From Kosakonia arachidis (GTDB lineage: Bacteria > Pseudomonadota > Gammaproteobacteria > Enterobacterales > Enterobacteriaceae): 64,000 nucleotides of DNA. The notes beneath the pieces are model-generated. The model was not told where the DNA came from, made no database searches, and saw only the letters and a list, made by a program, of their open reading frames with translations. Both the position numbers and the translations under genes were made by a program. Position 1 is the stretch's first letter. Every line of letters begins with the position of its first letter. The stretch lies in assembly GCF_900116535.1 (NCBI RefSeq), contig NZ_FPAU01000004.1, forward strand, positions 1-64,000, written 5' to 3'. Of the stretch, positions 1,661 through 22,017 are shown one piece after another.

Positions 1661-1761
1661 TCATAAAAAATCTTTGTAGTAATAAAATCATCCATTAATA
1701 TTAGTGGTAAAAATTAGATGCTCAAACTAAATAAATTTCCAAACTAAAAAAAGGGGCTGCA

Positions 1762-2388
1762 ATGTTTTGTAATAAATGTGGTTCATCAATATCTGAGACT
1801 GTTAATTATTGTGGGCAGTGCGGAGAGGATTTAAGAGTTACAAAAGGCAGAGTGAATCAATCTATAGCAGGTGATAATGGATTTAGCGCCGGACAGCACA
1901 ATGTTTTTACAGGCAATAACATTAATTTAGGTATGAGAGATGAAAGGCCTAAAGCATTCATTGACAGGGAAAGTGTGAAGCCAGTTAAGTTAATGGGGAA
2001 GCATATAAAAACAGCATGGCTAATGGTGGTCGGATTTGTTGGTTTTTTTGCCAACGTAGCAACAATTTTTACATCAATTGGAACACCTAATAATTACAAT
2101 ATGATATTATGGTTGCTATGTAGTTTCAGTGCTTTTCTTTTTATTTTGGGGTTTTTACTAAAGCGATTTCGTTTTATGCCTTTGATTTTTCAAAGAAATG
2201 CCGAATCAGATAGGTCTGGATATGTCTATATTACAAAACTATCAGGTAATTGTGCTCTTTGTGATGGAGAATTGAAGCTTAGGCATTTGGGACCTAAAAA
2301 TAATAAGAAAATGTTTCTATGTTGTACAAGGAATCCTGAACATCGGTGCCATTTTGATCCGACCATCCTAAATGATCCTATAAATTAA
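1762..2388 (+). CDS. Zinc-ribbon membrane protein
   Basis: A 208-aa protein with three parts. Residues 2-22 form an N-terminal zinc ribbon (FCNKCG...YCGQCG, two CxxC knuckles). A Gly/Asn-rich low-complexity stretch (GDNGFSAGQHNVFTGNNI) follows at about residues 37-54. Two hydrophobic segments at about 85-107 and 113-133 should span the inner membrane. The C-terminal domain has a second Cys/His cluster (CALC, CC, HRC) resembling a topoisomerase-type zinc finger. An AAGGGG ribosome site precedes the ATG. The cellular role is unknown; membrane anchoring with two metal sites suggests sensing or nucleic-acid binding, which is inference. Confidence 0.8.
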   Translation: MFCNKCGSSISETVNYCGQCGEDLRVTKGRVNQSIAGDNGFSAGQHNVFTGNNINLGMRDERPKAFIDRESVKPVKLMGKHIKTAWLMVVGFVGFFANVATIFTSIGTPNNYNMILWLLCSFSAFLFILGFLLKRFRFMPLIFQRNAESDRSGYVYITKLSGNCALCDGELKLRHLGPKNNKKMFLCCTRNPEHRCHFDPTILNDPIN

Positions 2389-2689
2389 AAAATAAAAGCC
2401 TGTGATGAAATAAAAAATAATCTCAGGCTGAGAAAAATATTAAATACAATGGATTCACAGTAAAAACGATGCTCAGCAGCACAAGGGTGGAAGAGAAATG
2501 GTTTTCAAAATCTAAGTTTATCTGTTTCCATAAAATGTGCTCGATGTCAAGAGAGTGTGAAGGATTATTATTCTCCCCCACAATAGTCCTTTAACGATCT
2601 ACCACAAGAAACAATGTCCACTACATCCCTTCAAAGCCTGTTCCCGTCTCTTTAGTATCAACTCATCGACAAGACGAGGAGATACAGCA
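2389..2689. other. AT-rich intergenic region before the AlpA-like gene
   Basis: About 300 bp with no gene seen. An imperfect hairpin just after the zinc-ribbon gene (AGCCTG at 2398-2403 with CAGGCT at 2424-2429) may end its transcript. The right part must hold the promoter of the AlpA-like regulator. The leader motif CATCGACAA at 2664-2672 recurs before the next gene (2922-2930). Confidence 0.4.
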
Positions 2690-2902
2690 ATGACTACAGT
2701 AACTACAAACACCACACGACTGATCCGCTTACCTGAAGTGCTACATAAAACCGGTTACAAAAAAGCATGGATTTACCGATTGATTTCCGAAAATAGATTC
2801 CCTAAACCTATCAAATTAGGTTCGAGAGCTGTGGCCTTTATTGAGATTGAAGTCGATGAGTGGATTTCTAACACCATTAGCAATTCGAGAACAGCTTCAT
2901 AG
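2690..2902 (+). CDS. AlpA-family transcriptional regulator / excisionase-like protein
   Basis: A 70-aa MerR-superfamily winged-helix protein of the AlpA (phage_AlpA) type. The core LIRLPEVLHKTGYKKAWIYR is the helix-turn-helix, followed by the wing RFPKPIKLGSRAVAFIEIEV and the family's EVDEWI ending. In P4-type satellites and islands such proteins activate integrase expression or act as excisionases, so it is the likely switch for island excision. A GAGGAGA ribosome site lies about 8 bases before the ATG. The next gene follows 40 bp downstream and may be co-transcribed. Confidence 0.88.
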   Translation: MTTVTTNTTRLIRLPEVLHKTGYKKAWIYRLISENRFPKPIKLGSRAVAFIEIEVDEWISNTISNSRTAS

Positions 2903-2942
2903 TTAGGCTCCAGACGAACAACATCGACAAAGTGAGGACAAC

Positions 2943-3566
2943 GTGGAAATTAAAGAATTCATGAAAATTGGAAACCTTTCAAGGCTTGTGAGTCAAAAAA
3001 ACTTCGATAAGATTTTCGATGCTGAAGCTATCAGGTTATTACCTGTGAATACATTGAGTAAGAAATCCGCGGAATGTTTAAGCTATTACCTCGAAGATAG
3101 CGAATACAATCCATTCCAGGTTTTACCTGAGTTAAATGAAGATAGTCGAAACTATATCTATGAAACCATACTGTCAGTGATCAAATGTAATGAGCTACTC
3201 AGAAAGTTATCGAAAAAAATCACACAGAACGAAATTCATATTGCTGTAAAAGAGGCTGGAAAGGGCGAAGACCATATCTTGCTCTGTAGCTTAAGTGTGC
3301 AAAAAGGGATGTTAGACCATTATGTGAAAACAATGCCGGATCTTCTCCCAGATGAAGATTCATTTATGACAGATGACATGAATTTTCTTAAGCTAAGCAC
3401 TGAAGATATAACGAAAATTTTGCTGTGTGACATGTTGGAAAGAGGAGCATTGATGATTCATATGGGAGATGAACTCCGCAGTAAAGCTAAAGTTATTCAA
3501 GAGGAATACTGGAAAGAAGTAGAAAATATTTACAACGGACAAACGACAATAAAAATTATTATTTAA
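2943..3566 (+). CDS. Unknown island protein, 207 aa
   Basis: A 207-aa soluble, mainly helical, acidic protein with no recognised domain. The GTG at 2943 is preferred as start because GAGG lies five bases upstream; an internal ATG at 2961 would shorten it by six residues. It follows the AlpA-like gene by 40 bp, and both genes share the leader CATCGACAA plus a purine-rich ribosome site, so they are probably expressed together. It could belong to the regulatory or excision module, but that is position-based inference only. Confidence 0.65.
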   Translation: MEIKEFMKIGNLSRLVSQKNFDKIFDAEAIRLLPVNTLSKKSAECLSYYLEDSEYNPFQVLPELNEDSRNYIYETILSVIKCNELLRKLSKKITQNEIHIAVKEAGKGEDHILLCSLSVQKGMLDHYVKTMPDLLPDEDSFMTDDMNFLKLSTEDITKILLCDMLERGALMIHMGDELRSKAKVIQEEYWKEVENIYNGQTTIKIII

Positions 3567-3881
3567 AATGTCATCGTTCCAAAAGTGTAAAGTTTTAATA
3601 TCAAAAACTAGTAAAATTTAACAGAATACTTTCCAAATTATTTTTTGGAGCCGCTGTATTACTTATGCACTAAGGCTTTATTAGTTTTTCTTCTTGAATC
3701 GGGTATGACTACTCTTTACTAGCCGTACTGGTTTCTTTCACGTGAAAGAATTTTTTTTAAATATATAAATTCATTATAGATAAACCAATAAAAAGCAAAA
3801 AAAATTTGCAAAATTTAAATTGGTCAAATAAAGATAAGCCGTAGTGATTACTAAATGTAAAGTTTTCGGAGGGTTATTATA
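3567..3881. other. Intergenic region with palindrome upstream of recombinase operon
   Basis: About 315 bp of very AT-rich DNA. It contains the perfect 18-bp palindrome TTCTTTCACGTGAAAGAA at 3733-3750, followed directly by eight T residues. The short sequence TGTAAAGTTTT occurs at both ends of the region (about 3586 and 3857). It should hold the recombinase operon promoter and may hold the left end of that module. Confidence 0.5.
3733..3750. promoter_or_regulatory. 18-bp perfect palindrome (operator or terminator)
   Basis: TTCTTTCACGTGAAAGAA is self-complementary over its full length. The T8 run after it fits a weak intrinsic terminator for the upstream gene, while its symmetry also fits a dimeric repressor site controlling the recombinase operon about 130 bp downstream. 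The sequence alone cannot separate these. Confidence 0.4.
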
Positions 3882-5087
3882 ATGTCATATAAAATAAAAA
3901 AATTTGTGATGAGCAACGGCGAACGAGGATGCTTGGTTCTCGATAAAGAAACACAATTGCCAGTTTACTATCAAAATCTCTATCTCACAGCGAATGTAAG
4001 GAACAGAAGTGCGACCGCATCAACAATGGAGATAGTCGCAACAAACTTACTCATACTGAGTAATTACATGAAAAGTAGGAATATCAATATCATTGACAGG
4101 ATTGAAAACAAGGTATTCTTAACCGTAGCTGAAATTGATGACCTGATACGGTATGCAAAGCAACGGTTCGATCAACAAAAAATTACGAATGTAAGATTAC
4201 TCAAAGGAAAGCAGATTGCTACAAGAACTTTTAGTTACAGGATACACGTTTTTTCAAATTACCTAAAATGGTTGTGCGGATTGATTCATTCTATGAAGGG
4301 AATCCATGCCAGATATGAAATCGATACTTTCATAGAAAATTTGAGAGCACATCTCCCACGAAATAAATCACACAGCATGAACGACAGAAAAGACAAATCA
4401 TTGAGTGAAGAAAAAATAAAAACTCTGTTTAATCTGTTGGAAGTCGAAGGGAGCCAAAACCCCTTTCAGAAGGAGGTTCAAGTCAGGAACAGGCTCATTT
4501 TTACCTTGTTACTGAATTGCGGGTTGAGAGCAGGTGAGTTACTAAATCTTAAAGTAAATGATCTAAATCTTAGGAATAACACACTAAGTATCTTCAGAAG
4601 GCATGACTGCATTGAAGATCGGAGGCTAAATCAGCCATTAGTCAAAACTGGCGAAAGGATAATCCCATTATCAGACGAGTTAGTGATGGAGATTTTTGAT
4701 TACATACAAACTTGTAGGAGTAAAACCACTAAAAAGAAAAAACATGACTTCCTGTTTGTAACTCACAGCGCAGGTAAAACGGTAGGAGAACCATTATCTG
4801 TATCAGCATATGAGAAAATAATTTCAACTATTAAAAAAACAAGCCCGGAATTAAAAAATTTATCAGGGCATAAATTGAGACATTCCTGGAACTATTTTTA
4901 TTCAAATGAAATTGATGGTTCAAATTTAGAAAGCAGTCGAAAGTCAGGATTGAGGTGCTATCTCATGGGGTGGTCAAAAGATTCAAAGATGTCAGAAAAC
5001 TATAACTTCAAACACATATCAATGAAAGAAAAGGAAGTTATTGGGAGGGTTTATGATTCTTTGAGAAAAATAATCAAAGGGGAATGA
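3882..5087 (+). CDS. Tyrosine recombinase, first of a trio (Tn554 TnpA / GmtY-like)
   Basis: A 401-aa site-specific tyrosine recombinase. A long N-terminal core-binding region (about 1-170) precedes a complete catalytic domain: Arg216 in GLRAGELLNL, His330 and Arg333 in GHKLRHSW, the Trp of MGWSK, and nucleophile Tyr374 in SENYNF. GGAGG lies 9 bases before the ATG. One base separates it from the next recombinase, giving a translationally coupled operon of three recombinases and a small helper. The arrangement resembles Tn554 tnpABC and the gamma-mobile-trio islands; assignment to GmtY is from memory and needs a profile search. Confidence 0.88.
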   Translation: MSYKIKKFVMSNGERGCLVLDKETQLPVYYQNLYLTANVRNRSATASTMEIVATNLLILSNYMKSRNINIIDRIENKVFLTVAEIDDLIRYAKQRFDQQKITNVRLLKGKQIATRTFSYRIHVFSNYLKWLCGLIHSMKGIHARYEIDTFIENLRAHLPRNKSHSMNDRKDKSLSEEKIKTLFNLLEVEGSQNPFQKEVQVRNRLIFTLLLNCGLRAGELLNLKVNDLNLRNNTLSIFRRHDCIEDRRLNQPLVKTGERIIPLSDELVMEIFDYIQTCRSKTTKKKKHDFLFVTHSAGKTVGEPLSVSAYEKIISTIKKTSPELKNLSGHKLRHSWNYFYSNEIDGSNLESSRKSGLRCYLMGWSKDSKMSENYNFKHISMKEKEVIGRVYDSLRKIIKGE

Positions 5088-5088
5088 A

Positions 5089-6402
5089 ATGCAAATAAAT
5101 ACTTTAAAAAAAGAGAATGTGGTGCTTGCAATGATGGAAGGATATAGCTTCATTATTCCTGATATTAAATGGCAATTAGATAAAAATAATTGTGTTTACC
5201 CACACAAGGTTGCCGATAAAATGCCAGAGCCGATGCGTGTTGGTTATCTGAATACCTTGGCTTACTTTTCGGCTGAATACAGTTCAGGTTACACAAAAAA
5301 CATAAACCAGATTTTTAGTCAATGGTTAGGGATGATAGACATTAAGACGATCGATGCTAATGCGGTTTATCAATTTAATGTTAGTTTAGGGCCTGAGAAA
5401 AACTACAAACTAAACTCTATAAAGCAGTTTCTAACGAAGTGGAAAAAGCTCGGTTATGTAGGAGTTGAAACTTCCGCTTTAACAATGCTGGAAAAAATAA
5501 ATATTAAAACTAATTTGACAGGAGAAGCCGTTAAACGAAGAGACCCAAATACTGGACCGCTAACTGGAAAAGAGCTGGAAGTCGTTCTTAAGAGTATCAG
5601 CAATTTGTTAAAAGAAGATAAAATTCCCATGTATCTTTATTGCTATGTCATTCTTTTAGCAACAACGGGAAGGAGGCCTTTACAGTTAACCTCCTTAAAA
5701 ACAAAAGATCTCATCAGAACGGGAGACGGTTGCTTTCTAAATATACCGAAAGTTAAACAAAGGAAGGACTTTAGAAGTGAGTTTAGCATGGTAAGTATCG
5801 ATGACTGCCTTAATGAAAAACTAACAACCTTGATTGATATGAATCAAAAATATATCGAAGATAGTATTAATCAGAAGATTAGTCATATAAAAAATGAATT
5901 ACCTATATTCATGGACTACAAAAAACCCGTATCAATTCAGTCTGGTCAAAGTTTAGAAACCATCATGGCAACTGATTTTTTACATATGAAGAATTCATTT
6001 ATATCTAAAGAATTAAATAAAATCACCACTAAATTTAATATCCAGTCCTCAAGAACCCACAATCCTATAAGTCTGAATGCCAGACGATTCAGGTATACCC
6101 TTGGATCTCGTTTAGCAAAGGAAGGAGCCTCAGTTGAAGTGATAGCAAAAGCATTAGACCATAAATCCATCAACTCATCAGGGATATACGTAAAAAACAG
6201 CCCAGAAAATGTTCATGAAATTGACATGAAACTTCATTCATTTTTTGATCCTCTATCAAAGATCTTTCTTGGTGGCGATAGCATTCAGAACAAGAAGCTG
6301 TTTAGAGAATATGTTTTAAATTCTTTTGGATTTACTAATTGTAAACACGAACACGTAGAGTGTTTTACCTGCAAAAACTTTAGAGCCTGGAGTTCTGAAT
6401 GA
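5089..6402 (+). CDS. Tyrosine recombinase, second of the trio, with atypical catalytic box
   Basis: A 437-aa tyrosine recombinase. The first arginine box is present (Arg195/196 in TTGRRPLQL), as are His358 (LDHKS) and Tyr367 (GIYVK). The usual HxxR box reads RRFR, so His is replaced by Arg332 with Arg335 kept. A C-terminal Cys/His cluster (NCKHEHVECFTCKNF) may bind zinc. The start at 5089 follows the preceding stop by one base, with AAAGGGG as ribosome site, and the gene overlaps the next by ATGA. It may be a non-catalytic or directionality partner of the first and third recombinases, which is inference. Confidence 0.85.
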   Translation: MQINTLKKENVVLAMMEGYSFIIPDIKWQLDKNNCVYPHKVADKMPEPMRVGYLNTLAYFSAEYSSGYTKNINQIFSQWLGMIDIKTIDANAVYQFNVSLGPEKNYKLNSIKQFLTKWKKLGYVGVETSALTMLEKINIKTNLTGEAVKRRDPNTGPLTGKELEVVLKSISNLLKEDKIPMYLYCYVILLATTGRRPLQLTSLKTKDLIRTGDGCFLNIPKVKQRKDFRSEFSMVSIDDCLNEKLTTLIDMNQKYIEDSINQKISHIKNELPIFMDYKKPVSIQSGQSLETIMATDFLHMKNSFISKELNKITTKFNIQSSRTHNPISLNARRFRYTLGSRLAKEGASVEVIAKALDHKSINSSGIYVKNSPENVHEIDMKLHSFFDPLSKIFLGGDSIQNKKLFREYVLNSFGFTNCKHEHVECFTCKNFRAWSSE

Positions 6403-8030
6403 CCAATGTGATTTTATTCGAGCCAATAAATACTAATAATCCATCATTTAATGTTGAAGGTTTTATTGAGTTTTGTAAGAGTAATATATTCAACTCAAAG
6501 TTAGCGATTACATGGGAAAGCAATGTATGGAAGGGATGTTACAAATTCAACAAGTTTGACATGAAAAATAATCGAAATAGCAAAGATAAATTAGATGATG
6601 GTTTCATTGATTTTGCTAAAGCTTATATGTTTCATATTCATTCTTTTAACAAGTCAAAATCAAACCAGAATGCTTTGGCAATGTTGAAGATCGTTGAGTT
6701 TGTGCTATTGAAATCATACGGTGAAGCTAATTTAGTCAAGTGTAATAATAACATTTTTGATGAGTGTGTAAGAGTATCAACGGCTAAATATACGAAATTA
6801 ACAGCAGTTGGAATTGGTAAGGAACTTGAGAAACTATGTTTATTTTTGAGTGAAAACAGAATGACAAGCTCATCATACTTTTTTTGGGTAAATCCGTTAA
6901 GGCATAAAATAACTCAAAGTTGGCAAGGTTATGAACCTTCGCTGGAAGGGCACTCAAAATTACCAGATATAAAGTCTGTCATAGCCATTGCGGAGATTTT
7001 CTCAAAAGATGAAAGCCAACTGTCTGTGAGGGACATTTTCACAACGTCTGTTCTTACACTGCTGATGTGTGCACCAGGACGAATCTCGGAAATTTTAAGC
7101 CTTCCTGCGGATTGTGAGATTACAGAGCATGATGAGAACGGCATTGAACGATATGGTTTAAGGTTTTTTTCAGCGAAGGGGTATGCTGGAGACATCAAAT
7201 GGATTCCTTCAGTAATGGTCCCTGTAGCTAAAAAGGCCATAGCCCGGTTGAGAAAGTTGTCCACCCATCCAAGGTTTGTTGCAAAAACGATGGAAGGGAA
7301 GGTCCCTGAGTCATACAAACATGAACTCTTTACTAAAAAGCCTCAAAATTTTCCCTGGTATGATGAAGAAAAGAAAATCAAATATTCGAATGCTTTATGT
7401 CTGTTATTCGAGGGGCAATTATGTAAGAAAACGAGCAAACCTTTGGCACCTTTGTTCAGACCAACTGCTCAGTTTTTTAGACTGGATATTGATGCATTTG
7501 CAAGTATCAAAGGCACTACCAACCTGTTTAAAAGACACGGTTATATTAACGAAGATGGTAGCCCGTATTCGCTTAGGACTCATCAATTAAGACATCTACT
7601 TAATACGTTTTCTCAAATCAATGGTATGGACGAGTTTAGCATCGCCAGATGGTCTGGAAGGAAGTTGGTATCACAAAATGTTTCCTACGATCACCGATCA
7701 CACTTACAAATGATCAATCTCATGAAAGATAAAACTTCAATCGGAGCCGGTAATAGCCATAGGAAAAAAGAAATAGCTGTTATGGACATAACTGATTTCG
7801 ATTTATCGAATGATGGAGCTGTGCTCGTCACTAAGCATGGCTACTGCAAGCACTCATATGTTTTTGAGCCTTGTTGTTATTATCCCTTACAAGACTCTGG
7901 AAAGGATGATGGCCAACTAATGATGATACACACTAAAATTCTTGAAAAAACCAATTATGATAAAAATGATGGGAATGTTAATGCTGATAAATGGTATGAA
8001 TTTCAAAATAAAATAATAAAAGGAGAGTAA
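6399..8030 (+). CDS. Tyrosine recombinase, third of the trio (Tn554 TnpB / GmtZ-like)
   Basis: A 543-aa large tyrosine recombinase. Catalytic residues are visible: Arg228 in APGRISEIL, His395 and Arg398 in HQLRHLLNTF, a Trp in RWSGRK at the position often held by His or Trp, and Tyr430 in NVSYDH. The RWSGRK...YDH motif and the large size match TnpB of Tn554 and related elements. A C-terminal CKHSYVFEPCC cluster again suggests a metal-binding tail. It overlaps the upstream gene by 4 bp and abuts the next gene, so all four are probably translated from one message. Confidence 0.85.
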   Translation: MTNVILFEPINTNNPSFNVEGFIEFCKSNIFNSKLAITWESNVWKGCYKFNKFDMKNNRNSKDKLDDGFIDFAKAYMFHIHSFNKSKSNQNALAMLKIVEFVLLKSYGEANLVKCNNNIFDECVRVSTAKYTKLTAVGIGKELEKLCLFLSENRMTSSSYFFWVNPLRHKITQSWQGYEPSLEGHSKLPDIKSVIAIAEIFSKDESQLSVRDIFTTSVLTLLMCAPGRISEILSLPADCEITEHDENGIERYGLRFFSAKGYAGDIKWIPSVMVPVAKKAIARLRKLSTHPRFVAKTMEGKVPESYKHELFTKKPQNFPWYDEEKKIKYSNALCLLFEGQLCKKTSKPLAPLFRPTAQFFRLDIDAFASIKGTTNLFKRHGYINEDGSPYSLRTHQLRHLLNTFSQINGMDEFSIARWSGRKLVSQNVSYDHRSHLQMINLMKDKTSIGAGNSHRKKEIAVMDITDFDLSNDGAVLVTKHGYCKHSYVFEPCCYYPLQDSGKDDGQLMMIHTKILEKTNYDKNDGNVNADKWYEFQNKIIKGE

Positions 8031-8456
8031 ATGGCTAAACATATTACTGGTTATGATGAAAAATTGATAATGAAAGTCATTAATACTTGGAATGACGATG
8101 AGAAGCTGACCTGGGAGGCTTTATGTGACGAGTTGATAAAGATTATTGGTAAGAGACCTTCAAGGCAATCTTTGAGTAGTCATGTTAAAATTGCAGATTG
8201 TTTTAATTCAAAGAAGATGCTTCTCAAGTCTGGCGTGAAAGAAACATGTGTTGTTAAACCTGCTAATTTAAAAATTGCTTGTCAGAGAATAAAAAGGCTC
8301 GAAATTGAAAACGAAGCTTTGATAGCATTGAATAACAAGTATTTAGAGCAGTTTAAGATATGGCTATATAATTCTCATTTAAAGCAAATAACAGCCGAAG
8401 AGCTTAATCGTCCCTTACCTAAAAAAGATATTCAAATAGAAATTGATAGGTTTTAA
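8031..8456 (+). CDS. Small accessory protein of the recombinase trio (TnpC/GmtX-like)
   Basis: A 141-aa protein that starts immediately after the third recombinase stop; its GGAGAG ribosome site lies in that gene's last codons. The N-terminal half looks like a helix-turn-helix (LTWEALCDELIKIIG...PSRQSLSSHV). The C-terminal half is a coiled coil with heptad leucines (IKRLEIENEALIALNNKYLE). Tn554 TnpC is similar in size and position and affects the frequency and orientation of transposition. A role as DNA-binding accessory to the recombinases is likely; GmtX identity is untested. Confidence 0.75.
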   Translation: MAKHITGYDEKLIMKVINTWNDDEKLTWEALCDELIKIIGKRPSRQSLSSHVKIADCFNSKKMLLKSGVKETCVVKPANLKIACQRIKRLEIENEALIALNNKYLEQFKIWLYNSHLKQITAEELNRPLPKKDIQIEIDRF

Positions 8457-8491
8457 CTATTGACATGATTGAATATTATGATATTTCTTTA

Positions 8492-8508
8492 AATGTCAGG
8501 ATGACATT
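8492..8508. promoter_or_regulatory. Short inverted repeat before 135-aa gene
   Basis: AATGTCA-GGA-TGACATT is a perfect 7-bp inverted repeat with a 3-base spacer. It lies 21 bp before the next ATG and 36 bp after the recombinase operon, so it may be an operator. Confidence 0.35.
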
Positions 8509-8529
8509 CACAACAGCAAGGATGCTACT

Positions 8530-8937
8530 ATGAATAAATTAAACAGATATTTGCCAGATCAGAAATTTTTGATACTCCTTAATCGCTTCATTCTTAGATA
8601 CGATGAATCAGACTGCAACAAAGAAAAAATCGTAAAAGATGCCTACCTTTTCTGTGTAGGATACTTTTTGAAGTATCAGCAAGACTATCAGAATCCTTAT
8701 CTGAAGGGACCAAGCAACATTATTGCAGTTTTGAGTTCAGCTTTGCTCAGTCCAAACTTCTATACAATACCTTCAACTGTCAGCCTTGAACGAGTGCTGT
8801 ATTTCTACAAGTTTATTATCGAATACATTATCTGGAATGAGTATGAAGTAGAAAGAATATTTGCTACTCAAAAACAGAGTTTTACGCCTTCACCAGAGCT
8901 TAAATCAGATGGTTTCAAAATGAAGAAAAGGGTTTAG
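8530..8937 (+). CDS. Unknown island protein, 135 aa
   Basis: A 135-aa protein, aromatic-rich and predicted helical, with no recognised domain and no clear membrane segment. The segment LERVLYFYKFIIEYIIWNEYEVE is the most distinctive. AAGGA precedes the ATG by about eight bases. It follows the recombinase module by 73 bp that include a short inverted repeat, so it may be separately regulated. It could be cargo of the recombinase module or its last member. No function can be assigned. Confidence 0.6.
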   Translation: MNKLNRYLPDQKFLILLNRFILRYDESDCNKEKIVKDAYLFCVGYFLKYQQDYQNPYLKGPSNIIAVLSSALLSPNFYTIPSTVSLERVLYFYKFIIEYIIWNEYEVERIFATQKQSFTPSPELKSDGFKMKKRV

Positions 8938-8955
8938 GATATACTTTTTATTGAG

Positions 8956-9034
8956 TATGGCGATACAATAACTATGCCATATGATCTTTACACTTAACTT
9001 AGGGCGAGTGTTCTGCAAATGGATCATATGGCAT
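8956..9034. promoter_or_regulatory. Alternative-hairpin leader with 13-bp perfect inverted repeat
   Basis: ATGCCATATGATC at 8974-8986 is perfectly inverted as GATCATATGGCAT at 9022-9034, with a 35-base loop. The middle segment can instead pair with TATGGC at 8956-8961. The two hairpins are mutually exclusive and lie 58 bases before the next start codon. This could be a transcript switch, a recombination site or an operator. Confidence 0.4.
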
Positions 9035-9091
9035 CTCAGCTTTAATGTATGATATATTTTCTTTTATCTTATGGCTTTTCAGGATGATGAA

Positions 9092-9415
9092 ATGAACGAT
9101 TTTGAGCAAAAGCTCCTTCAGAATGGATTTTCGGCGAAGGATATCCGCAAGCTTAATGAAATTCTTACCCGAGATGAGAACAAATCAGATACACTTCAGT
9201 CTCTCATTCAGGAGCTGAGCAAGCGCTTTTGGGCTGGTATAATTTCCATGCTCATTATTTTATCAGTTTTCATTTATGGTATAGCGAAAGGGCATAAAGA
9301 AAGCCTGATTTCTTATGCTATCGTCCTTATCATCGGTGCCATAATCGTTTACTTTGTCATACCAATGAATCTGGCCTGGAAAGCACACAGGTTTGCTAGT
9401 AATAGCAAAAGTTAG
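9092..9415 (+). CDS. Small inner-membrane protein, 107 aa
   Basis: A small protein with a charged N-terminal helical region (about residues 1-45) and two hydrophobic segments (about 50-68 and 75-95), ending in a short basic tail. The ATG at 9092 is preferred because AGGATGATGAA precedes it; an upstream ATG at 9071 would add seven residues but has no ribosome site. It converges with the DUF4225-type gene, their 3' ends overlapping by 4 bp. That fixed overlap hints that the two membrane proteins work as a pair, for example toxin and immunity, but this is unproven. Confidence 0.65.
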   Translation: MNDFEQKLLQNGFSAKDIRKLNEILTRDENKSDTLQSLIQELSKRFWAGIISMLIILSVFIYGIAKGHKESLISYAIVLIIGAIIVYFVIPMNLAWKAHRFASNSKS

Positions 9416-10230
9416 TTTCCATTTTGGTTGTGATTCATCTGATAGAGGTTCACACCTATAGCGCTACCTTTCCAGATTGCTGTTGCACCTTTTAGAGCCA
9501 AGTCTTGTTTGCTCATCATCTGCACCTGGCGATAGTAATCAGTAGGGAGATACTTGAATATTCTCCAAGCCTCGGGTTTCAAAGTCAGTTTGAAAATTCC
9601 GTAGTAAGATGTAGTGAGATCAACTACTTGGTAAGCAAGCAGACCCAAGCGTTTATCAAATCCAAAAAATTCAGCTACATCCTGATAAGCTTCAATCACC
9701 GGATTGGAAGGATTCGAAACTCCTCTTAACTTGTCTATGCTTTCCGCCATTGAACCTGCACCATTAGCAATCAATGCAGAACCTGCAACAACACCGATAA
9801 CATTTCCACTGAACAGTGATCCAGCAAACAAGCCTACCCCAGCCACTAGCTGAACAGTCCCAAGAACTACTCCGATGCCGTCGATGACATAGCCAATGAT
9901 CTTTTCATGGTCATGGTAAAACTTCACAGAAGACGAAACTACGGCTTCTCCTGTTCTGAGCATCCTGTCCTGAATCTTTAAGTTTTGGGCTTCTTGTTTA
10001 AGATTCTGGATACACTCCTGACACTTATCATCCGAGATAGAAGTGCGGATAGTCTGGATCTGCAAGCGGGTGAACTCCTTTATTTCATCCTGAAACCTTA
10101 CACGGACAAGCGCATCCTTGAGATGGAACTGTGAGAGGGATGAGGCAACATTGACTAAGTGATTAGCCTCAAGACTTGCCATGCTCAGAAAGTAGTTTAA
10201 TTGCCTGTTCCTGTCCCAGTAGTTATCCAT
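9412..10230 (-). CDS. DUF4225-type membrane protein
   Basis: A 272-aa protein. Residues 1-110 are helical with a CQEC motif (DDKCQECIQNL). A hydrophobic, glycine-rich hairpin at about 113-160 (GYVIDGIGVVLGTVQLVAGV, then GNVIGVVAGSALIANGAGSM) looks membrane-inserting. The C-terminal part is soluble and ends in a Lys/Asn-rich tail. The layout and the VSNPSNPVIEAYQD...GFDKRLGLLAYQ region match, from memory, DUF4225 proteins of Enterobacteriaceae, which have been suspected to be toxins. AAGGATG precedes the ATG. It is divergent from the OLD-nuclease gene across about 350 bp. Confidence 0.75.
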   Translation of the reverse strand: MDNYWDRNRQLNYFLSMASLEANHLVNVASSLSQFHLKDALVRVRFQDEIKEFTRLQIQTIRTSISDDKCQECIQNLKQEAQNLKIQDRMLRTGEAVVSSSVKFYHDHEKIIGYVIDGIGVVLGTVQLVAGVGLFAGSLFSGNVIGVVAGSALIANGAGSMAESIDKLRGVSNPSNPVIEAYQDVAEFFGFDKRLGLLAYQVVDLTTSYYGIFKLTLKPEAWRIFKYLPTDYYRQVQMMSKQDLALKGATAIWKGSAIGVNLYQMNHNQNGN

Positions 10231-10586
10231 ACAACATCCTTAAAGATATGAGTTTCTGCACTGCAAAATTTACACCTAACTTTCTCATATGATAAGAAAT
10301 TTTTCATTATCATAATCAAGCAAGGAAAATCGTTTAACTAGCTGATTTTAAATAAAATTATTATTTTAGCAATAGTTATCACTGAAACTAATTTCACAAT
10401 TATGAAAGCATTATGTGAAGAAAATGTGGTGTAAATCTGCACGAAAAATTGTAAAGTATTATGTCATGCGCGGCAGAAGGCTTGCTAACAATTATTCATA
10501 TAGATAGTTATATTTCTTCTTTTATTCTAAGTCTGCATAACCAGCGAAAGTAAGTTAATCAAAATTAAACTTTGAGGCATAAAGGA
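10231..10586. other. Divergent promoter region before the Gabija-like operon
   Basis: About 356 bp of mostly AT-rich DNA between two divergent genes. ATTTACACC at 10268-10276 is inverted as GGTGTAAAT at 10428-10436, and the flanking bases are partly shared (TGCA next to both), so the pair may bind one regulator at both promoters. A small GC-richer patch at about 10465-10490 stands out. No ORF or RNA gene is supported. Confidence 0.4.
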
Positions 10587-12713
10587 ATGTATCTTAAAAG
10601 TATCAAAATAAACAATTTCAGAAAATTTGGTAGCAAAGATAATTTAATAGGCTTTGTAAAAGCTAATTCAGGAGACAATAATGAAGCACCAGTTGCTTCA
10701 TCAACCACTTTAATAGTAGGTAAAAATAATGCAGGTAAAACTACTATAACTAAAGCGTTAGAGTTTATTGTTGATGAAGGAGATAAGTTAGTCGGCTCAT
10801 ATTTTAATTTTGATTACTTAAATGGTTTATTGAATAAGTATATTGAAGGTGACTACAGTGAAACCCCAGAATTAAGCTTTATTTTAGAGGTGATTCTTGA
10901 TAATCGTGATCAAGATTTAGCGACTAACTTTGGGGAGTTTATTACTATTAGTGACAGTGAAGATGTTAAAAAAACGCAGTCAGCTATAGTTAAAATATTT
11001 TATGAAGTTAAAGACAAGGATTTGTTTGAAGTTGATATAAAAAAAGGAATTGACTTTCTTACTCTGAAAAAAAAGGATAGAGTTTCAAAATTTAAATATT
11101 TAGTGGACAAGATATCAGAAACTCAATTCAGACGAGTAGTAAAAGGATTAAACGGTAAGGGAGAGAAAAATATTAGGCTAAAAGATATAATTGATCTTAA
11201 GGTTATATCGGCTTCAAATAATATTCATGATAAAAGGTTGCTGGCTAAATCTTTTAATAAAATAATTAGGTATATGTACGAAGTCAACGATAGAAGTTTA
11301 CAGAGTATTAATAGTTTAGTTGAAAAAAATAATAGTAGATTGACGGGTAAAATTAGAAGAAATCATCAGAAGGGGATTCAATCTGTCTTGGAAAAAATCG
11401 TCTCTGAAAACGCATTGGCTTTCTCTTTAAGAGCTGACCTTACCTTCGATAAATTAATGACCGATCTTGTCACTTATGAGTACATAGACGGTGAACATCA
11501 TGTGCCAGAAGGGCAATTCGGTTTAGGTTATACTAATCTGATAAATATACTTAGCGAAATCATTGATTTTTCATATAGATGCAAATATATGAAAAAGCAA
11601 AGTAAAGTTCAGGTTTTATGTATTGAAGAACCTGAACTTTTTATGCATCCACAAATGCAAGTCAATTTCATTCGTCATATAGAAGAAGCACTTTTTGCAA
11701 TATTAAAACTATCAAGCAGAGATTTTGCCAATTTAAAAACTCAAATTGTCATTACTACACATTCATCACATATACTGAATAGTGTGATCCAGGAGAGCTG
11801 CTCATTAGATGAAGTTAATTATACATATCCAGAAAATGGGCTTAGCAAAAATATTATAATTAAAGACTCTGATATTGCTATGGGTAAGAGTGAGAAGGAT
11901 TATTTTCAGTTTATAAAAAAACATATAAAGCATCAAGTGCCTGAATTGTTTTTTTCTGATGCTATCATATTAGTCGAAGGGATTACTGAGGAAAGACTTG
12001 TTAACTTTTTCATAGAAAAGGATGTATCTCTTAGAAGAAAAAAGATTTCAGTATTCAGAATAGATGGTGCTCACGGCAGTGTTTACATAAAATTGTTGAA
12101 TGCTCTAAGAATTCCTTCATTAATCATTACTGATATTGATTTCCAAAGAGAAAAGGAATCTTTATATAAAGAAGTTGAAGTGCAAGAGAATAAGAAAATT
12201 AAAATCCCTCTCTATCCGCAACTTGACAAAATTGATGAAACTACACTCACAACTAATAAAACGCTCACTTTCATTCATGGAAGTTCAAAAGTAAATACCT
12301 TCAATGAATATTTCATAAAAGAAAATGTAAGGGTTTCATATCAAATTGAACCTGTTGAGCTTTACGCTTCAGGGACCCTGTTAAGTAAATGTTATGCTAC
12401 TAGTTTTGAAGAGGCACTAATTTTAGAGAATTATAGTAATCCTCTTTTTAAAGAAATTTTAAAAACAGTAATTCCTTCTGTTATGGATGAATTGCTTGGT
12501 GGGGATAATGTAGATGAAAATGTTTTATTCAAAAATTCTTACAGGTTACAAAAGAATTTATCCGAAAGTAAAAGTAAATTTAGTAACTCAATTATATACT
12601 CATTGGTTAACTCGGCAGAAAGTTCGGAACATCAATTATTAATCCCTAAGTATATTAAAGAAGGAATTGATTGGCTTTCAAATTACAAGTTCGCTGACGA
12701 GGTTGAATTATGA
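10587..12713 (+). CDS. gajA: OLD-family ATP-dependent nuclease, GajA-like (Gabija defence)
   Basis: A 708-aa ABC-type ATPase fused to a TOPRIM nuclease. Visible motifs are Walker A (GKNNAGKT, residues 45-52), the OLD signature region GLGYTNLI, Walker B (IEEPE, 346-350) and the H-loop (VITTHSSHIL). The TOPRIM acidic residues are also present: Glu464 in LVEGITEER and the DxD pair Asp516/Asp518. Class 2 OLD proteins encoded next to a UvrD-like helicase form Gabija, which nicks or degrades phage DNA when nucleotide pools drop. The ATG at 10587 has GAGG at a 9-base spacing; the TTG at 10572 is less likely. It overlaps the helicase gene by 4 bp. Confidence 0.85.
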   Translation: MYLKSIKINNFRKFGSKDNLIGFVKANSGDNNEAPVASSTTLIVGKNNAGKTTITKALEFIVDEGDKLVGSYFNFDYLNGLLNKYIEGDYSETPELSFILEVILDNRDQDLATNFGEFITISDSEDVKKTQSAIVKIFYEVKDKDLFEVDIKKGIDFLTLKKKDRVSKFKYLVDKISETQFRRVVKGLNGKGEKNIRLKDIIDLKVISASNNIHDKRLLAKSFNKIIRYMYEVNDRSLQSINSLVEKNNSRLTGKIRRNHQKGIQSVLEKIVSENALAFSLRADLTFDKLMTDLVTYEYIDGEHHVPEGQFGLGYTNLINILSEIIDFSYRCKYMKKQSKVQVLCIEEPELFMHPQMQVNFIRHIEEALFAILKLSSRDFANLKTQIVITTHSSHILNSVIQESCSLDEVNYTYPENGLSKNIIIKDSDIAMGKSEKDYFQFIKKHIKHQVPELFFSDAIILVEGITEERLVNFFIEKDVSLRRKKISVFRIDGAHGSVYIKLLNALRIPSLIITDIDFQREKESLYKEVEVQENKKIKIPLYPQLDKIDETTLTTNKTLTFIHGSSKVNTFNEYFIKENVRVSYQIEPVELYASGTLLSKCYATSFEEALILENYSNPLFKEILKTVIPSVMDELLGGDNVDENVLFKNSYRLQKNLSESKSKFSNSIIYSLVNSAESSEHQLLIPKYIKEGIDWLSNYKFADEVEL

Positions 12714-14764
12714 TGTATGAAGAATCTCAGGATGTACTTATAGAAGAAGTCAAGGTCTTTGATACCTTGCTTGGATATGTTAATGGCAAGAAGCCATTTT
12801 ATTTCCTCTCCGGTGCTGGTAGTGGCAAGACTCATGCTTTGATAAGTTTAATAAAAAAAATAATGCAAGATAAAAAATCGCAATTAGCATCATCGAGTCA
12901 GAAAATATTATGTATAACATATACTAATAATGCTAAAGATGAAGTTATCAGCAGGCTGGGTGAAAATGATTTAGTTTATGTGTCTACAATTCATAATTTT
13001 TTATGGGACATGATTCAACATCATATGGATGCTCTTATTGTAATTCATGTTGCATATTTGACTGATTTAATAAAGAAAAATGAAAATGAGTTATTTTATG
13101 ATGAGAGTGACAAGCCTGCATATCAAGTTTATAGGGGATTGAATCAAGCTGAAATAGAAGCACTCACATACTTTATTTCGGAAGATAACGAATCTTACTA
13201 TAAAATGAAAGAACTTAACGCAGGGGATTTTTGGCAACTATTAAATGATGAACTTGGCGAAGATTTTGGTAAGAAATTAAAAACAAACAAATCTCACGTG
13301 CTCAAAATATTTTCATGTATCAGAAGGATCTATAACTATAAAAATTGTTTAAAAAACATCGCTGATGGCGTTAGAGGTTATGACTTTATAGAATACAATA
13401 TAAGAAATGCAGAATGTCTTTATAAGAATAGAATTGGTCATGATACACTCTTACTTTATGCATATAAATTAATGGAAAACTATCCTTACTTTGCAAATAT
13501 TCTTATTGACAAGTTTCCGTATACCTTTATCGATGAATATCAAGATACACATGATAATGTCGTGGCTTTTTTCAAATTAATTACAGAACGTGTGAGGTCA
13601 AGTGATTCTCAATATTTAATTGGCTTATTTGGAGATCCATCCCAAGAGATCTACAGTTCAGGTGGTCGAACTTCGTTTTTGACCTTCGATGAAGTTCATA
13701 AAAACATCAATAGAAGATCGCATGATCAAATTATTGATTGTATAAATAAAATCAGAGGGGGACATCAGCCTATAAAGCAAGTTTCTATTTTTAGAAATAA
13801 AGATCTTGGCAGTGTTAGATGTTATATTTATCCGATGTCAAAATGTAATAAATTAGACATTGAAGAAATAATTGATTCTTATCGGTCCGAATGGGATGTA
13901 AGTTTATCTAACCAAATGGCTTGTCTTGTATCAAAAAATGAGATGCTTGCCGAAGTTTGTAATTTCTCAAACTTATATAGGAAAGTGAATGATTTGTTTG
14001 TTGCAGATAACAAAAACAATTATAAAAAAGTCAATGATGAATTTGTTGTGAACAATATTGATAAATTTGGTTCTTTTGCTTCCATTATGTATGCTTATTG
14101 TAAGCCTGCTTACTTGTTAAAATTAAAAAGCGATGCTCCTATAATTGAATTGTTTCCAAAGCTTCATTTGCAAGAATGCACAGTTAAAGATATTGGGATA
14201 GCAGTGCGTAAGTTGAATGCATTGAGTTATCGCAGCTTGGAAGATTATTTCGTCAGCCTATATGAATTGTTTAACACCACCAAAAATAAGAGAGTTAAAT
14301 CTTTAATTAAGTCTCTTTTACCAATCGAGTTTGATAGTGAAGACGTTTGGAAAGAAAAATTAGTTACATACTGTGGTTTGAGAAAAGTGAAGTTTGATGA
14401 CGCAGTATTTCAGAATTTTTTAAAGGTTGACTTTGATGAGATGATTCATTGGATGAGATACATCAATTCTAATAAAACCGATAGTCCAGTAAATGTCATG
14501 ACATGTCACTCGTCTAAGGGACTTGAGTATGAAAATGTAATTGTATTTTTAAACGATAATATGAACAGAAAGCATACGTATTTCTCCAGTCTTCTAAATT
14601 CGGATTTGAACGTAGAGTTGTCTCCTGACTTAGAAGAAGTTAGAAGGCTCTTATATGTGTCAACATCAAGAGCTATAAAAAATCTTCGAGTTGTGCTTTT
14701 TTCTGATAATGGACTTGAGAAGGGTAGCATTCAGAAAATTTTTGATGATTGTGTGTTTTTTTAG
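12710..14764 (+). CDS. gajB: UvrD/Rep-like SF1A helicase, GajB-like (Gabija defence)
   Basis: A 684-aa superfamily 1A helicase. Visible motifs are Walker A GAGSGKT (35-41), motif Ia-like TYTNNAKDEV, motif II DEYQD (275-279), motif III GLFGDPSQEIY, motif V-like CHSSKGLEYENVIV and motif VI-like RLLYVSTSRA. It starts inside the nuclease stop codon (ATGA), a translational coupling typical of Gabija pairs. As remembered, well-studied GajB proteins are near 500 aa, so the long middle region (about 330-580) is larger than usual. In Gabija the helicase is activated by DNA ends and helps turn on GajA. Confidence 0.83.
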   Translation: MMYEESQDVLIEEVKVFDTLLGYVNGKKPFYFLSGAGSGKTHALISLIKKIMQDKKSQLASSSQKILCITYTNNAKDEVISRLGENDLVYVSTIHNFLWDMIQHHMDALIVIHVAYLTDLIKKNENELFYDESDKPAYQVYRGLNQAEIEALTYFISEDNESYYKMKELNAGDFWQLLNDELGEDFGKKLKTNKSHVLKIFSCIRRIYNYKNCLKNIADGVRGYDFIEYNIRNAECLYKNRIGHDTLLLYAYKLMENYPYFANILIDKFPYTFIDEYQDTHDNVVAFFKLITERVRSSDSQYLIGLFGDPSQEIYSSGGRTSFLTFDEVHKNINRRSHDQIIDCINKIRGGHQPIKQVSIFRNKDLGSVRCYIYPMSKCNKLDIEEIIDSYRSEWDVSLSNQMACLVSKNEMLAEVCNFSNLYRKVNDLFVADNKNNYKKVNDEFVVNNIDKFGSFASIMYAYCKPAYLLKLKSDAPIIELFPKLHLQECTVKDIGIAVRKLNALSYRSLEDYFVSLYELFNTTKNKRVKSLIKSLLPIEFDSEDVWKEKLVTYCGLRKVKFDDAVFQNFLKVDFDEMIHWMRYINSNKTDSPVNVMTCHSSKGLEYENVIVFLNDNMNRKHTYFSSLLNSDLNVELSPDLEEVRRLLYVSTSRAIKNLRVVLFSDNGLEKGSIQKIFDDCVFF

Positions 14765-14779
14765 TTAGTTTTATTTATA

Positions 14780-14813
14780 AAATGGAAGCGATAAAGGATT
14801 ATCACTTCCATTT
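14780..14813. terminator. Bidirectional terminator-like hairpin
   Basis: AAATGGAAG (14780-14788) pairs with CTTCCATTT (14805-14813), and GATAA/TTATC extends the stem inside. A-rich and T-rich flanks fit termination of both convergent transcripts. Confidence 0.6.
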
Positions 14814-14825
14814 ATTTTGAAGTGT

Positions 14826-15455
14826 TTATTTATTAATTGTTTTATCGAAGATATGCATCCAGCGCTTAAGTTGCATTTCCGTATCCCGGATGCCTTCTTG
14901 TGAGTTAAAGTCACCCTTTTGGGGAAAGAACATTACTCTCCATTCTGGATACTGAACATCGTCCACTGCGATGTAAAAGCCCGATTCTCTGAAATCATGA
15001 GTGCGGTCGAGTTCTTTGTTGATACCAGCCCGTTCTCTCGTAGTAGATAAATTGTATCGCCACTCTTTGATTGCTGAGAACGGATAGGTCTTTTGTTTGT
15101 TCTCTTCCTTGAGATGGATAAGTCCTCTTTGCTGGTCGAGCTTCATAAAAGTGGAACCAAACTCATGACTCCACATACCGTCTTGCTCGCCAAAATGGTC
15201 TCTGGTGCTGGCATTCCACTTTTTGATGCGGAATTTTTTATAAGCAAACATCAAGAGCATGATGCTTGCGAAAATCCATACGACTGCAAGCTGGACCAAC
15301 CCCTGAATTCCAGAGAAATAGAAAATGACAATCGGAAGTGCAATTGCAATCCATACCCGTTTCATCATAAGGAAGTTGGGCTGTTTTACTTCAGTTGTTG
15401 CTGTCATAGGTTCGTCCAAGGTTAGTTTCTCTGAATCGAAGGCGCACGTATGCAT
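14826..15455 (-). CDS. Membrane-anchored protein (possibly DUF4755)
   Basis: A protein of up to 209 aa with two adjacent hydrophobic segments (about residues 32-50 and 52-70) near the N-terminus. A cytoplasmic domain of about 135 residues follows, with FMKLDQQRGLIHL, AIKEWRYN and EWRVMFFP segments. From memory it resembles DUF4755 proteins found next to mobilization genes; the function is unknown. The first ATG (15455) and an internal one (15407) are both possible; neither has a strong ribosome site. It is transcribed in the same direction as the relaxase, 248 bp downstream of it, so it may belong to the transfer region. Confidence 0.65.
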   Translation of the reverse strand: MHTCAFDSEKLTLDEPMTATTEVKQPNFLMMKRVWIAIALPIVIFYFSGIQGLVQLAVVWIFASIMLLMFAYKKFRIKKWNASTRDHFGEQDGMWSHEFGSTFMKLDQQRGLIHLKEENKQKTYPFSAIKEWRYNLSTTRERAGINKELDRTHDFRESGFYIAVDDVQYPEWRVMFFPQKGDFNSQEGIRDTEMQLKRWMHIFDKTINK

Positions 15456-15546
15456 CAGCTTATTCTGCTGATAAATCAGTGTGCTATGTGGTTTCGTTTG
15501 AAGTTACATTACGGCTAGGAAACAGGGTCTAGCAAATCATTTATAC

Positions 15547-15620
15547 CGATCGATCGCTTTCTTTTGATAGTCAATGACTATCATGAATAGATAATTGATC
15601 AGTAATAACGATCGATCGTT
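15547..15620. promoter_or_regulatory. Cluster of palindromes and five GATC sites
   Basis: The region holds CGATCGATCG (15547-15556), the inverted repeat TGATAGTC-AAT-GACTATCA (15565-15583), and the 14-bp palindrome AACGATCGATCGTT (15607-15620). Five GATC sites lie within 70 bp. It is the promoter side of the downstream membrane-protein gene and follows the relaxase gene. A methylation-sensitive operator or a transfer-related site is possible. Confidence 0.45.
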
Positions 15621-15703
15621 TTTATCTATCAATCTGATTTGAAATGAAAATATTTGTTGTGTTTGGCTTAGGGAATGATTTTAACTATCTGAAAACTAGC
15701 CGT

Positions 15704-16810: not shown

Positions 16811-16819
16811 CTTGGATGA

Positions 16820-17212
16820 TCACTTTTCAAGTGTCAGCAGAGCATCTCTTACATGCGACAGTTTCAATTTTAAAGTGCTTACTTCCTGCGATAGTGGCTG
16901 AGCATCTTCGCCTCTGCGAAGCAGGAACGAAGTAAGATCATTCAGTTTCTGTAGGGAATCAGTAAGCTCCTGCCAGGCTTCTTTGTTGATTTCGGGAACA
17001 GAAGGGGGTAGTTGCTGAAGAGCTGAGGATCTAAGCCAACAGCTCCTGCTTAGCTGTCCTCTGAACTGGTTTACTTTGCTCAGCTCGACTTCGTTTAATC
17101 TGACTGTTACTGAGTGTTTGCGAAGACGATTAGGGGGTAATTTTTTAACGGCAGGATCATTAGTAAATGTAGAAGGAAAATCATCGTCGAATATAATATT
17201 ATTTTTTTTCAT
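16820..17212 (-). CDS. MobC-like relaxosome accessory protein
   Basis: A 130-aa basic protein. Residues 30-65 (RKHSVTVRLNEVELSKVNQF) have the beta-strand plus helix pattern of ribbon-helix-helix mobilization proteins, followed by a helical C-terminus. Such proteins bind oriT and help the relaxase to open the DNA. AAGGAG lies 6 bases before the ATG. The relaxase gene follows after 9 bp, so the two form an operon. The oriT-like hairpin at 17350-17388 lies upstream, as expected. Confidence 0.78.
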   Translation of the reverse strand: MKKNNIIFDDDFPSTFTNDPAVKKLPPNRLRKHSVTVRLNEVELSKVNQFRGQLSRSCWLRSSALQQLPPSVPEINKEAWQELTDSLQKLNDLTSFLLRRGEDAQPLSQEVSTLKLKLSHVRDALLTLEK

Positions 17213-17349
17213 ATCAACTCCTTTTGATATTTAGGTTTAATAGCAAATCCATATGCTATCTATAATAAATACCATAAAGATCAATCGCGTCAATGTGTTG
17301 GGATTGAGGATTTTGCTTTGATCTTTCTTTTTCAACCAAAGGGCAGAAA

Positions 17350-17388
17350 AAGCAAGGCAACTGAGCATCGCTCAGTTAGCCCTTGCTT
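17350..17388. other. Candidate oriT stem-loop
   Basis: AAGCAAGG (17350-17357) pairs with CCTTGCTT (17381-17388), and AACTGAGC (17359-17366) pairs with GCTCAGTT (17370-17377) around an ATC loop, with a small bulge between the stems. There is no T-tract, so it is not a simple terminator. It lies 138 bp upstream of the MobC-like gene. Confidence 0.5.
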
Positions 17389-17483
17389 GCTTGACTTTAT
17401 AAAAAAAAAGGTTATTAAGATTATTGATATAAATGAAAAAGGATTAATAAATGAAAATATTTTATAAACTTGCAATCTTAATA

Positions 17484-17520
17484 AAAACAAAGCCACACTA
17501 TATCAGTGGGGCTTTGTTTT
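17484..17520. terminator. Bidirectional intrinsic terminator
   Basis: AAAACAAAGCC (17484-17494) pairs with GGCTTTGTTTT (17510-17520), with CACT/AGTG extending the stem. A- and T-rich flanks occur on both sides. It lies just downstream of the three-gene NdpA-like operon and marks its end. Confidence 0.8.
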
Positions 17521-22010: not shown

Positions 22011-22017
22011 TTTAACC

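Follow-up and report, generated by a model that had tools for sequence, protein, structure and literature searches.

The first 64,000 nucleotides of Kosakonia arachidis contig NZ_FPAU01000004.1 (RefSeq assembly GCF_900116535.1), read on the forward strand and called the window here, hold a genomic island at the tRNA gene argW. Within the island, at positions 3882 to 8456, lie four tightly packed genes that, judged by homology, are a diverged ginABCD operon, the gene set of three integrases and a small protein that defines the islands called GInts (Bardaji 2017, PMC5385486). Upstream of the operon is a 28-bp recombination core with near-invariant arms and a hypervariable center, and this core is the left boundary of a gin module that moves between islands. 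We put at about 60% the probability that the island is an integrative and mobilizable element (IME) at argW with a GInt-type recombination module as one of its parts and that the Gin proteins of this module recombine the core with other DNA. Related loci and islands are designated by L numbers.

The four genes are a diverged ginABCD operon

3882 to 5087, + strand: ginA, tyrosine recombinase, 401 aa; PF00589; 28 to 37% identical to GinA of ssb-linked GInts; catalytic R, H, R, and Y in 38/38 rows
5089 to 6402, + strand: ginB, tyrosine recombinase, 437 aa; PF00589; NF041502 at 325.9 bits (cut-off, 350); 26 to 32% identical to GinB of ssb-linked GInts
6399 to 8030, + strand: ginC, large recombinase-like protein, 543 aa; 26 to 34% identical to GinC of ssb-linked GInts; R, HxxR, and Y in 38/38 rows
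8031 to 8456, + strand: ginD, small helix-turn-helix (HTH)/long-helix helper, 141 aa; 26 to 46% identical to GinD of ssb-linked GInts; helices predicted

An earlier interpretation made from the letters and open reading frames (ORFs) of the window, referred to here as the sequence-only reading, described four tightly packed ORFs of 401, 437, 543, and 141 aa, and both the coordinates and the junctions were exactly as claimed: a 1-bp gap between ginA and ginB, a 4-bp overlap between ginB and ginC, and 0 bp between ginC and ginD. Gene order and all four frames are retained in three Escherichia coli relatives at protein identities of 53 to 86%, which argues that the quartet does not consist of chance ORFs. 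Some relatives carry damaged copies, with a frameshift in ginD of L012, a ginC split by IS600 in L013, and a frameshift in ginA of L014.

Phage_integrase (PF00589) matched the products of ginA (73.7 bits) and ginB (46.1 bits), and GinB resembled XerH in a profile search (E = 5e-4). Neither GinC nor GinD had a match at E ≤ 0.001 in Pfam, NCBIfam, or PHROGs. Catalytic residues were read from alignments of IME and ssb-linked rows (38 for GinA, 39 for GinB, and 38 for GinC), many of which are close relatives. Arg I, HxxR, and Tyr were invariant in GinA, and Arg, His-x-x-Arg, and Tyr at tyrosine recombinase spacing were invariant in the GinC homologs. In GinB, His and Tyr were present in 39/39 rows, the His of HxxR was Arg in 35/39, the last Arg of that box was kept in 38/39, and the box I arginines were found in 38 and 39 rows. 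The earlier claim of three tyrosine recombinases stands for GinA and GinB, and it is solely for its conserved motif and spacing that we call GinC recombinase-like. In published descriptions, GinC is without the first Arg (PMC5385486) or without the catalytic Tyr (PMC10214605); in the present alignment set, it keeps both. GinD had been proposed as an HTH/coiled-coil helper; its predicted structure, with short helices and one 40-residue helix (residues 77 to 116; pLDDT 73), is in line with that proposal, and a comparison with the PDB gave no match at E ≤ 0.001.

Six GInts in the source study are located behind ssb (PMC5385486). A GinC protein search of plasmids matched 59 records, 40 of the 59 being among the matches listed, and each of the six plasmid matches inspected had a homologous operon directly behind an annotated single-stranded-DNA-binding protein gene. 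The identities given above are with four such ssb-linked islands, which match the published ssb site and took the place of published type sequences in judging homology. Gene order and relative sizes also match, with GinB and GinC shorter in the window (437 and 543 aa versus 504 to 526 and 616 to 689 aa by annotation). Close gin relatives on plasmids were rejected, each of the 59 GinC-matching records being below 60% identity, and phage origin was rejected after a GinC search of 50,697 phage records gave no match at E ≤ 1e-5. We conclude from sequence comparison that the four genes form a diverged ginABCD operon, each having its homolog in the operon of ssb-linked plasmid GInts. The name ginABCD was absent from the proposals of the sequence-only reading.

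The island as a whole is not filed as a GInt. It has the four-gene ginA-B-C-D operon, whose products are each homologous to a Gin protein, and it shares with GInts (Tn6571 family; PMC5385486 and PMC10121019) the encoding of three tyrosine recombinase-like proteins and a small HTH protein in one operon and a cargo that includes defense genes; a 6-nucleotide exchange is a reported feature of GInts, as is a need for all four genes in excision and integration. In GInts, however, the operon is the 5′ end of the integrated island and the flanks are Gin-made attL and attR of 10 to 17 nucleotides, whereas here the island starts at 577 with ginA only at 3882, the flanking repeat and the island ends are those of argW, and the Gin-type core is single and unsplit. 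GInts have also been termed putatively non-mobilizable (PMC10214605), unlike the window island with its relaxase. We conclude that the island carries a GInt-type module.

The center of the recombination core is hypervariable

3702 to 3729, + strand: unsplit recombination core, GGTATGACTAC - TCTTT - ACTAGCCGTACT; arms near-invariant and center hypervariable across 18 loci
3733 to 3750, + strand: 18-bp perfect palindrome, TTCTTTCACGTGAAAGAA; a second variant changes symmetrically at paired positions

The core lies about 150 bp upstream of ginA and has inverted arms of about 11 bp. All 18 window-type loci, the window included, have a common core of the form GGTATGRMTAC - 5 bases - ACTAGCCGTACY; among these, L003 and L004 do not differ over 148 bp. 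Its arms vary at 3 positions, and its center shows 16 different 5-mers across the 18 loci. Between L083 and L084, only 2 of 143 flanking positions differ, versus 4 of the 5 central ones (hypergeometric P = 3.9e-6), a distribution that argues against drift. Among the 21 closest nonidentical pairs, which are not independent of one another, P was ≤0.003 in 19 and was 0.013 and 0.037 in the remaining two. The neighboring palindrome is, from its symmetry, a probable dimer binding site. We conclude that the central bases of the core turn over far faster than their surroundings.

In ten loci with other gin types, the DNA upstream of ginA was searched for an inverted 11-6-11 site, and a match at 9 or more of 11 positions was required. 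Such a site was found in L054, L060, L065, and L080, and none reached 9/11 upstream of ginA in L053, L018, L066, L070, L071, or L062; one further match elsewhere in L060 is probably due to chance. In six loci of a second type, a similar site varies mainly at its center.

No second core was found within the window at up to 8 mismatches, and in the ssb-linked GInts a search for direct repeats that could mark a right end gave nothing convincing. An exact copy of the 11-mer GGTATGGATAC, the usual left arm of the core, occurs at 845 to 855, at the start of the DUF6387 gene. It was judged to be a chance occurrence, the L084 homolog being without that start.

The gin module moves between islands with the core as its left boundary

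Two E. coli islands, L001 and L004, are identical over the 161 bp left of the center of the core and 69% identical over the 300 bp to its right. In 100-bp steps, identity is 97 to 100% up to the core (the 97% step holds the center) and 51 to 89% across the gin operon. It returns gradually within p137, the gene found there in the place of the window gene p135, and is 92 to 100% from beyond p137 past the relaxase gene. A left flank of at least 96% identity next to a right flank of at most 69% was seen in 9 of 153 window-type pairs, on three left backgrounds and therefore from at least three exchanges. Trees of GinC and of the relaxase for 26 shared loci, made quickly and containing long branches, had no strongly supported split in common, with 7/11 and 11/13 such splits contradicted. 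Because of the sharp left edge of identity and the conflict between trees, we conclude that gin is a module that moves between islands and that the core is its left boundary.

The host island is probably an IME

577 to 594, + strand: left 18-bp argW repeat, ATATGGTGTCCCCTGCAG, distal island end; exact copy of 26288 to 26305
848 to 1660, + strand: DUF6387 protein, backbone gene; PF19924, 255 bits; E. coli islands have a protein of about 35% identity at this position
2690 to 2902, + strand: AlpA-type HTH protein, backbone gene; PF05930, 75.6 bits; 69 to 70% identical in E. coli islands
8530 to 8937, + strand: p135, backbone gene right of the gin/Rep-like slot; family A5, in 29 of 392 family genomes including its own
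15704 to 16810, − strand: relaxase, MobA/VirD2-like; PF03432, 84.2 bits
16820 to 17212, − strand: MobC-like accessory gene; 38% identical to the relaxase-adjoining gene in E. coli islands
24852 to 26111, − strand: island integrase at argW; Arm-DNA-bind_3, Phage_int_M, and Phage_integrase
26288 to 26305, + strand: right copy of the 18-bp repeat, 3′ end of argW (tRNA-Arg cct, 26291 to 26365)

The island spans 577 to 26305, and similarity to a Pantoea island (L099) begins at 580. The backbone common to the window's family is DUF6387-AlpA-gin-p135-relaxase-MobC. By analogy, the AlpA-type protein may be a directionality factor or regulator. The MobC-like gene has no Pfam match, and its L001 counterpart has a sub-threshold NikA-like match. 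The island has the features of an IME, namely a site-specific integrase, flanking repeats, and its own relaxase (PF03432), and on its gene content it is probably an IME transferred by a helper.

EARL (ROD21-like) islands such as ICEKp258.2 (PMC10763509) resemble the window island in having a P4-type integrase at a tRNA gene, a relaxase, and, at the other end, an AlpA factor and a DUF6387 gene; the P4 type of the window integrase was judged from its Arm-DNA-bind_3 and Phage_int_M domains. The available part of the ICEKp258.2 gene table is without the recombinase quartet, and EARL islands lie mostly at tRNA-Asn. They have a MOBQ relaxase, TraD, and pilus genes; the window relaxase is MobA/VirD2-like, and the window proteins scanned with Pfam gave no pilus or TraD match.

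Several further stretches of the window and island were noted. Before the relaxase, 15472 to 15616 is noncoding, carries repeated CGATCGATC motifs, is about 69% conserved in two E. coli islands, and is a candidate oriT or operator. The gap between ginD and p135 (8457 to 8530) contains what by eye is a promoter of the TTGACA type. It also contains the inverted repeat TGTCAGGATGACA, which varies symmetrically in its outer bases among relatives; p135 may be regulated by its own repressor. Adjoining the integrase, 21138 to 24423 holds two ParB/RepB-like genes and then a serine recombinase gene, the same three gene kinds as are annotated at 21941 to 25230 of E. coli L017. A 108-aa ORF at 20379 to 20705 is like the C-terminal end of an integrase and is probably a remnant of an earlier element. 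Following AlpA, 2943 to 3566 encodes an uncharacterized 207-aa protein, and similar proteins of about 104 aa were seen there by eye in some islands. The contig starts near an IS3-type orfA (1 to 280) just outside the island, and the chromosomal side beyond the left argW repeat lies outside the window.

Either gin or a possibly Rep-like gene occupies the slot left of p135

By megablast, DNA relatives of the gin block occurred in 34 of 5426 E. coli genomes; by blastn, 362 E. coli genomes held at least 80% of window positions 3690 to 7600, with O157:H7 prominent among the matches listed. Among 14 other genomes of the same genus compared with window positions 1700 to 20000, 13 had no match and one had a 270-bp match inside the relaxase. 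Twelve E. coli islands (L001 to L004 and L012 to L019) were inspected by hand. In each of them, DUF6387 and AlpA lie left of the slot and p137 lies right of it; gin fills the slot in 11, L019 being without gin. Relaxase and MobC-like genes follow in L001 to L004 and L014 to L018, the relaxase only in L019, and neither within the stretch read in L012 and L013. L015, L016, and L019 directly adjoin a tRNA gene.

A p135/137 profile found 35 places in the 29 matching genomes of the window's family, and 31 regions were fetched, the window's own place and three weak, partial hits being excluded. To the left of p135 lay gin in 23 regions, a winged-helix gene of 171 to 188 aa on the opposite strand in 7, and a contig end in 1 (L076), which could not be scored. 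Within stretches of up to 20 kb scanned for two Rep families, gin and a Rep-like gene occurred together in 0 of 31 islands. The slot of L019 has a Replicase (PF03090, 105 bits). The winged-helix proteins gave matches below cut-off, to RepL, Rep3_N, and phage O in L072 and to Rep3_N and phage O in L073, and beside their genes are direct repeats of 49 bp (three copies in L072, two in L073), found without a chance control; these resemble what an origin might have. On the relaxase tree, the gin/Rep-like state requires at least two changes, a count that leaves out L076 and takes the partial gin loci L056 and L063 as gin.

Islands with gin in this place are found at argW, tRNA-Thr, tRNA-Leu, and tRNA-Arg (tct) and beside mutS. 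Exceptions to the common arrangement are L053, in which ginD and p137 are about 3 kb apart, and five mutS-side islands without an AlpA match. These five (L060, L064, L065, L067, and L080), in which mutS was recognized by eye, have another, larger integrase-like gene and another HTH gene in place of AlpA.

Gabija lies in a separate cargo slot

9037 to 14824, no strand assigned: exchangeable cargo slot with a 114-aa protein, a DUF4225 protein, and Gabija GajA and GajB; limits from L099

The sequence-only reading placed the genes in an argW island carrying Gabija, as borne out by the 18-bp argW repeats and by matches to GajA (646.6 bits) and GajB (699.7 bits). Its DUF4225 pair is reduced to one member, the match at 9412 to 10230, the 114-aa protein having no Pfam match. 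It had also suggested that 3.6 to 14.8 kb might be one module with its cargo. In Pantoea L099 and Erwinia L100, DNA from AlpA through gin to p135 is 91 to 92% identical to the window and identity resumes at 14825 (89 to 93%). The DNA between has no match. L099 has three other genes there, one of them encoding what by eye is an ATPase of 607 aa, and L100 has two; in L100 the match already stops at 8862. L100 adjoins tRNA-Arg (tct) and has its integrase at the DUF6387 end. Because these islands keep the gin backbone and replace 9037 to 14824, Gabija was not brought with gin as one block, and the single-block proposal was ruled out. We conclude that Gabija is island cargo in a separate slot that changes independently of gin.

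Other cargo was noted in passing. Positions 1656 to 2607 form a second variable slot, in which L099 has a 661-aa gene instead of the zinc-ribbon gene that separates DUF6387 from AlpA in the window. His-Xaa-Ser (hxs) cassettes are frequent cargo of E. coli islands (L002, L015, L016, L017, and L018).

Proposed mechanism and alternatives

In the reading that we favor, GinA, GinB, and GinC together with GinD would bind the core and the neighboring palindrome. Strand exchange with a 6-bp overlap would take place against heterologous cores or targets, and the new core center would be copied from the partner DNA. The island would thereby have a second recombination route besides the argW integrase, either integration and re-excision of a circle or core-to-core fusion with swapping of modules, and its transfer would depend on the relaxase together with the conjugation system of a helper. 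A similar outcome of exchange with partners of differing center is reported for GInts, in which excision leaves altered attI sequences and changes compatible with 6-nucleotide staggered cuts (PMC5385486), and for strand-biased circularizing elements (SEs), in which C and C′ arms flank a 6-bp spacer that records past partners (PMC10214605).

Several results weigh against this reading. Allowing 3 mismatches, a search of the host genome found the whole core once and no further site that could be its partner. A search with only the right half of the core in 84,980 species genomes found the core joined in 6 of 6 loci (L081 being the same island as L068) and no split core. A core-centered query was covered to at least 80% in 358 of the 362 E. 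coli places, and all 60 of the 362 rows that were listed, mostly O157:H7 clones, span the core. As no core split into attL and attR was found, common Gin-made integration is disfavored. The right-hand crossover is gradual and may be due to homologous recombination instead of Gin. GinC as a recombinase received no support from a profile-profile comparison with GinA (0.5% probability, though the aligned piece is the Arg I box), from a profile search of solved structures, in which no recombinase was found, or from an AlphaFold model that was unusable at pLDDT 35.

A complete GInt could instead be nested as a guest in an older IME, with the core at 3702 as its left end, its right end further downstream, and the genes after ginD as cargo in Bardaji's sense. 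The position of the operon at the left of the block and sharp edges of DNA homology with E. coli islands at 3691 and 8543 agree with this. The window, however, has no second core, although GInt repeats may be 10 nucleotides long or imperfect and a poor one could escape the search. Moreover, conservation between islands extends some tens of base pairs beyond the core to its left, such that both sides look like part of the gin site, and in islands from many genomes and at different sites, gin occupies a single position in the backbone, next to p135 on its left. We consider a nested GInt unlikely, and the separate element that the sequence-only reading had placed within the island is not upheld. 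Rather unlikely, too, is that Gin substitutes for a replication module and prevents loss of the excised element, for example, by a copy-out reaction as proposed for strand-biased elements. The 31 regions of the slot survey, the Replicase of L019, the 49-bp repeats, and at least two changes of the slot on the relaxase tree speak for it. A common slot is no proof of a common function, however, the winged-helix matches were below cut-off, the scan was confined to stretches of up to 20 kb and two Rep families, and L053 and the mutS-side islands depart from the pattern. We know of no replication by such recombinases, which weighs further against it. In its stronger form, a doubtful one, a four-protein Gin machine working at the 28-bp core would replace the replication initiator. 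It would maintain or amplify the excised element, for instance through circles copied out or through parking in any AT-rich target, and each such event would rewrite the central bases.

That the module has decayed and is now carried along without a role, its variable center reflecting relaxed constraint, is very unlikely. The broken copies in L012, L013, and L014 would fit, but nearly all aligned copies retain the catalytic residues, and drift is very unlikely to alter 4 of 5 central bases with 141 of 143 flanking positions unchanged. We give hardly any credence to a gamma-mobile-trio or Tn554-type transposon with defense cargo, despite a similar general layout. The gamma-mobile-trio, to which the sequence-only reading had likened the genes, is likewise a recombinase module with defense cargo. 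The NCBIfam check gave GmtY only 33.8 bits on GinA and 23 on GinB, far below its cut-off of 340, and no other Gmt-named model at E ≤ 0.001 in a scan of the four proteins (models for the partners GmtZ and GmtX are ascribed to NCBIfam by the sequence-only reading), and the label was rejected. RITs are three adjacent tyrosine recombinases without a fourth helper, whereas here, in a comparison by definition only, a fourth gene is present and conserved. Tn554 (described in PMC10214605 and compared by description only) is similar in its large and ordinary recombinases, TnpC-like small helper, and 6-bp footprint; its tnpA-tnpB-tnpC has two recombinases versus three recombinase-like genes here, and the window's cargo changes independently of the module. 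The earlier description of a Tn554-like layout plus one recombinase nonetheless captures a multi-recombinase mobility module with a small helper. SEs likewise have a four-gene recombinase operon but, by description (PMC10214605), in the order intA-tfp-intB-srap with a second protein, Tfp, that lacks the RHRY motif, whereas GinB has box I R, the final R, H, and Y.

Implications

GInts in E. coli defense islands are already in print (Hochhauser 2023, PMC10121019), and a figure of 7.5% for Escherichia has been given (PMC10214605). Publications, including PMC10214605, describe GInts as putatively non-mobilizable, with transfer not demonstrated. In the literature searched, which covered passages of main text and few subscription papers, gin as a backbone module of relaxase-bearing islands, a hypervariable core center, and alternation of gin with Rep-like genes were not found.

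A Gin quartet in relaxase-bearing islands offers a route of transfer, and islands swap these modules at a single short site. The rapid turnover of the core center is evidence from nature that strands are exchanged with other DNA, and it provides a direct assay. As a caution, a recombinase trio plus a defense gene need not form one unit. The slot that holds either gin or a Rep-like gene raises the question of why such islands need either, and if Gin does substitute for a replication initiator, the island would carry a readable trace of its own recombination history.

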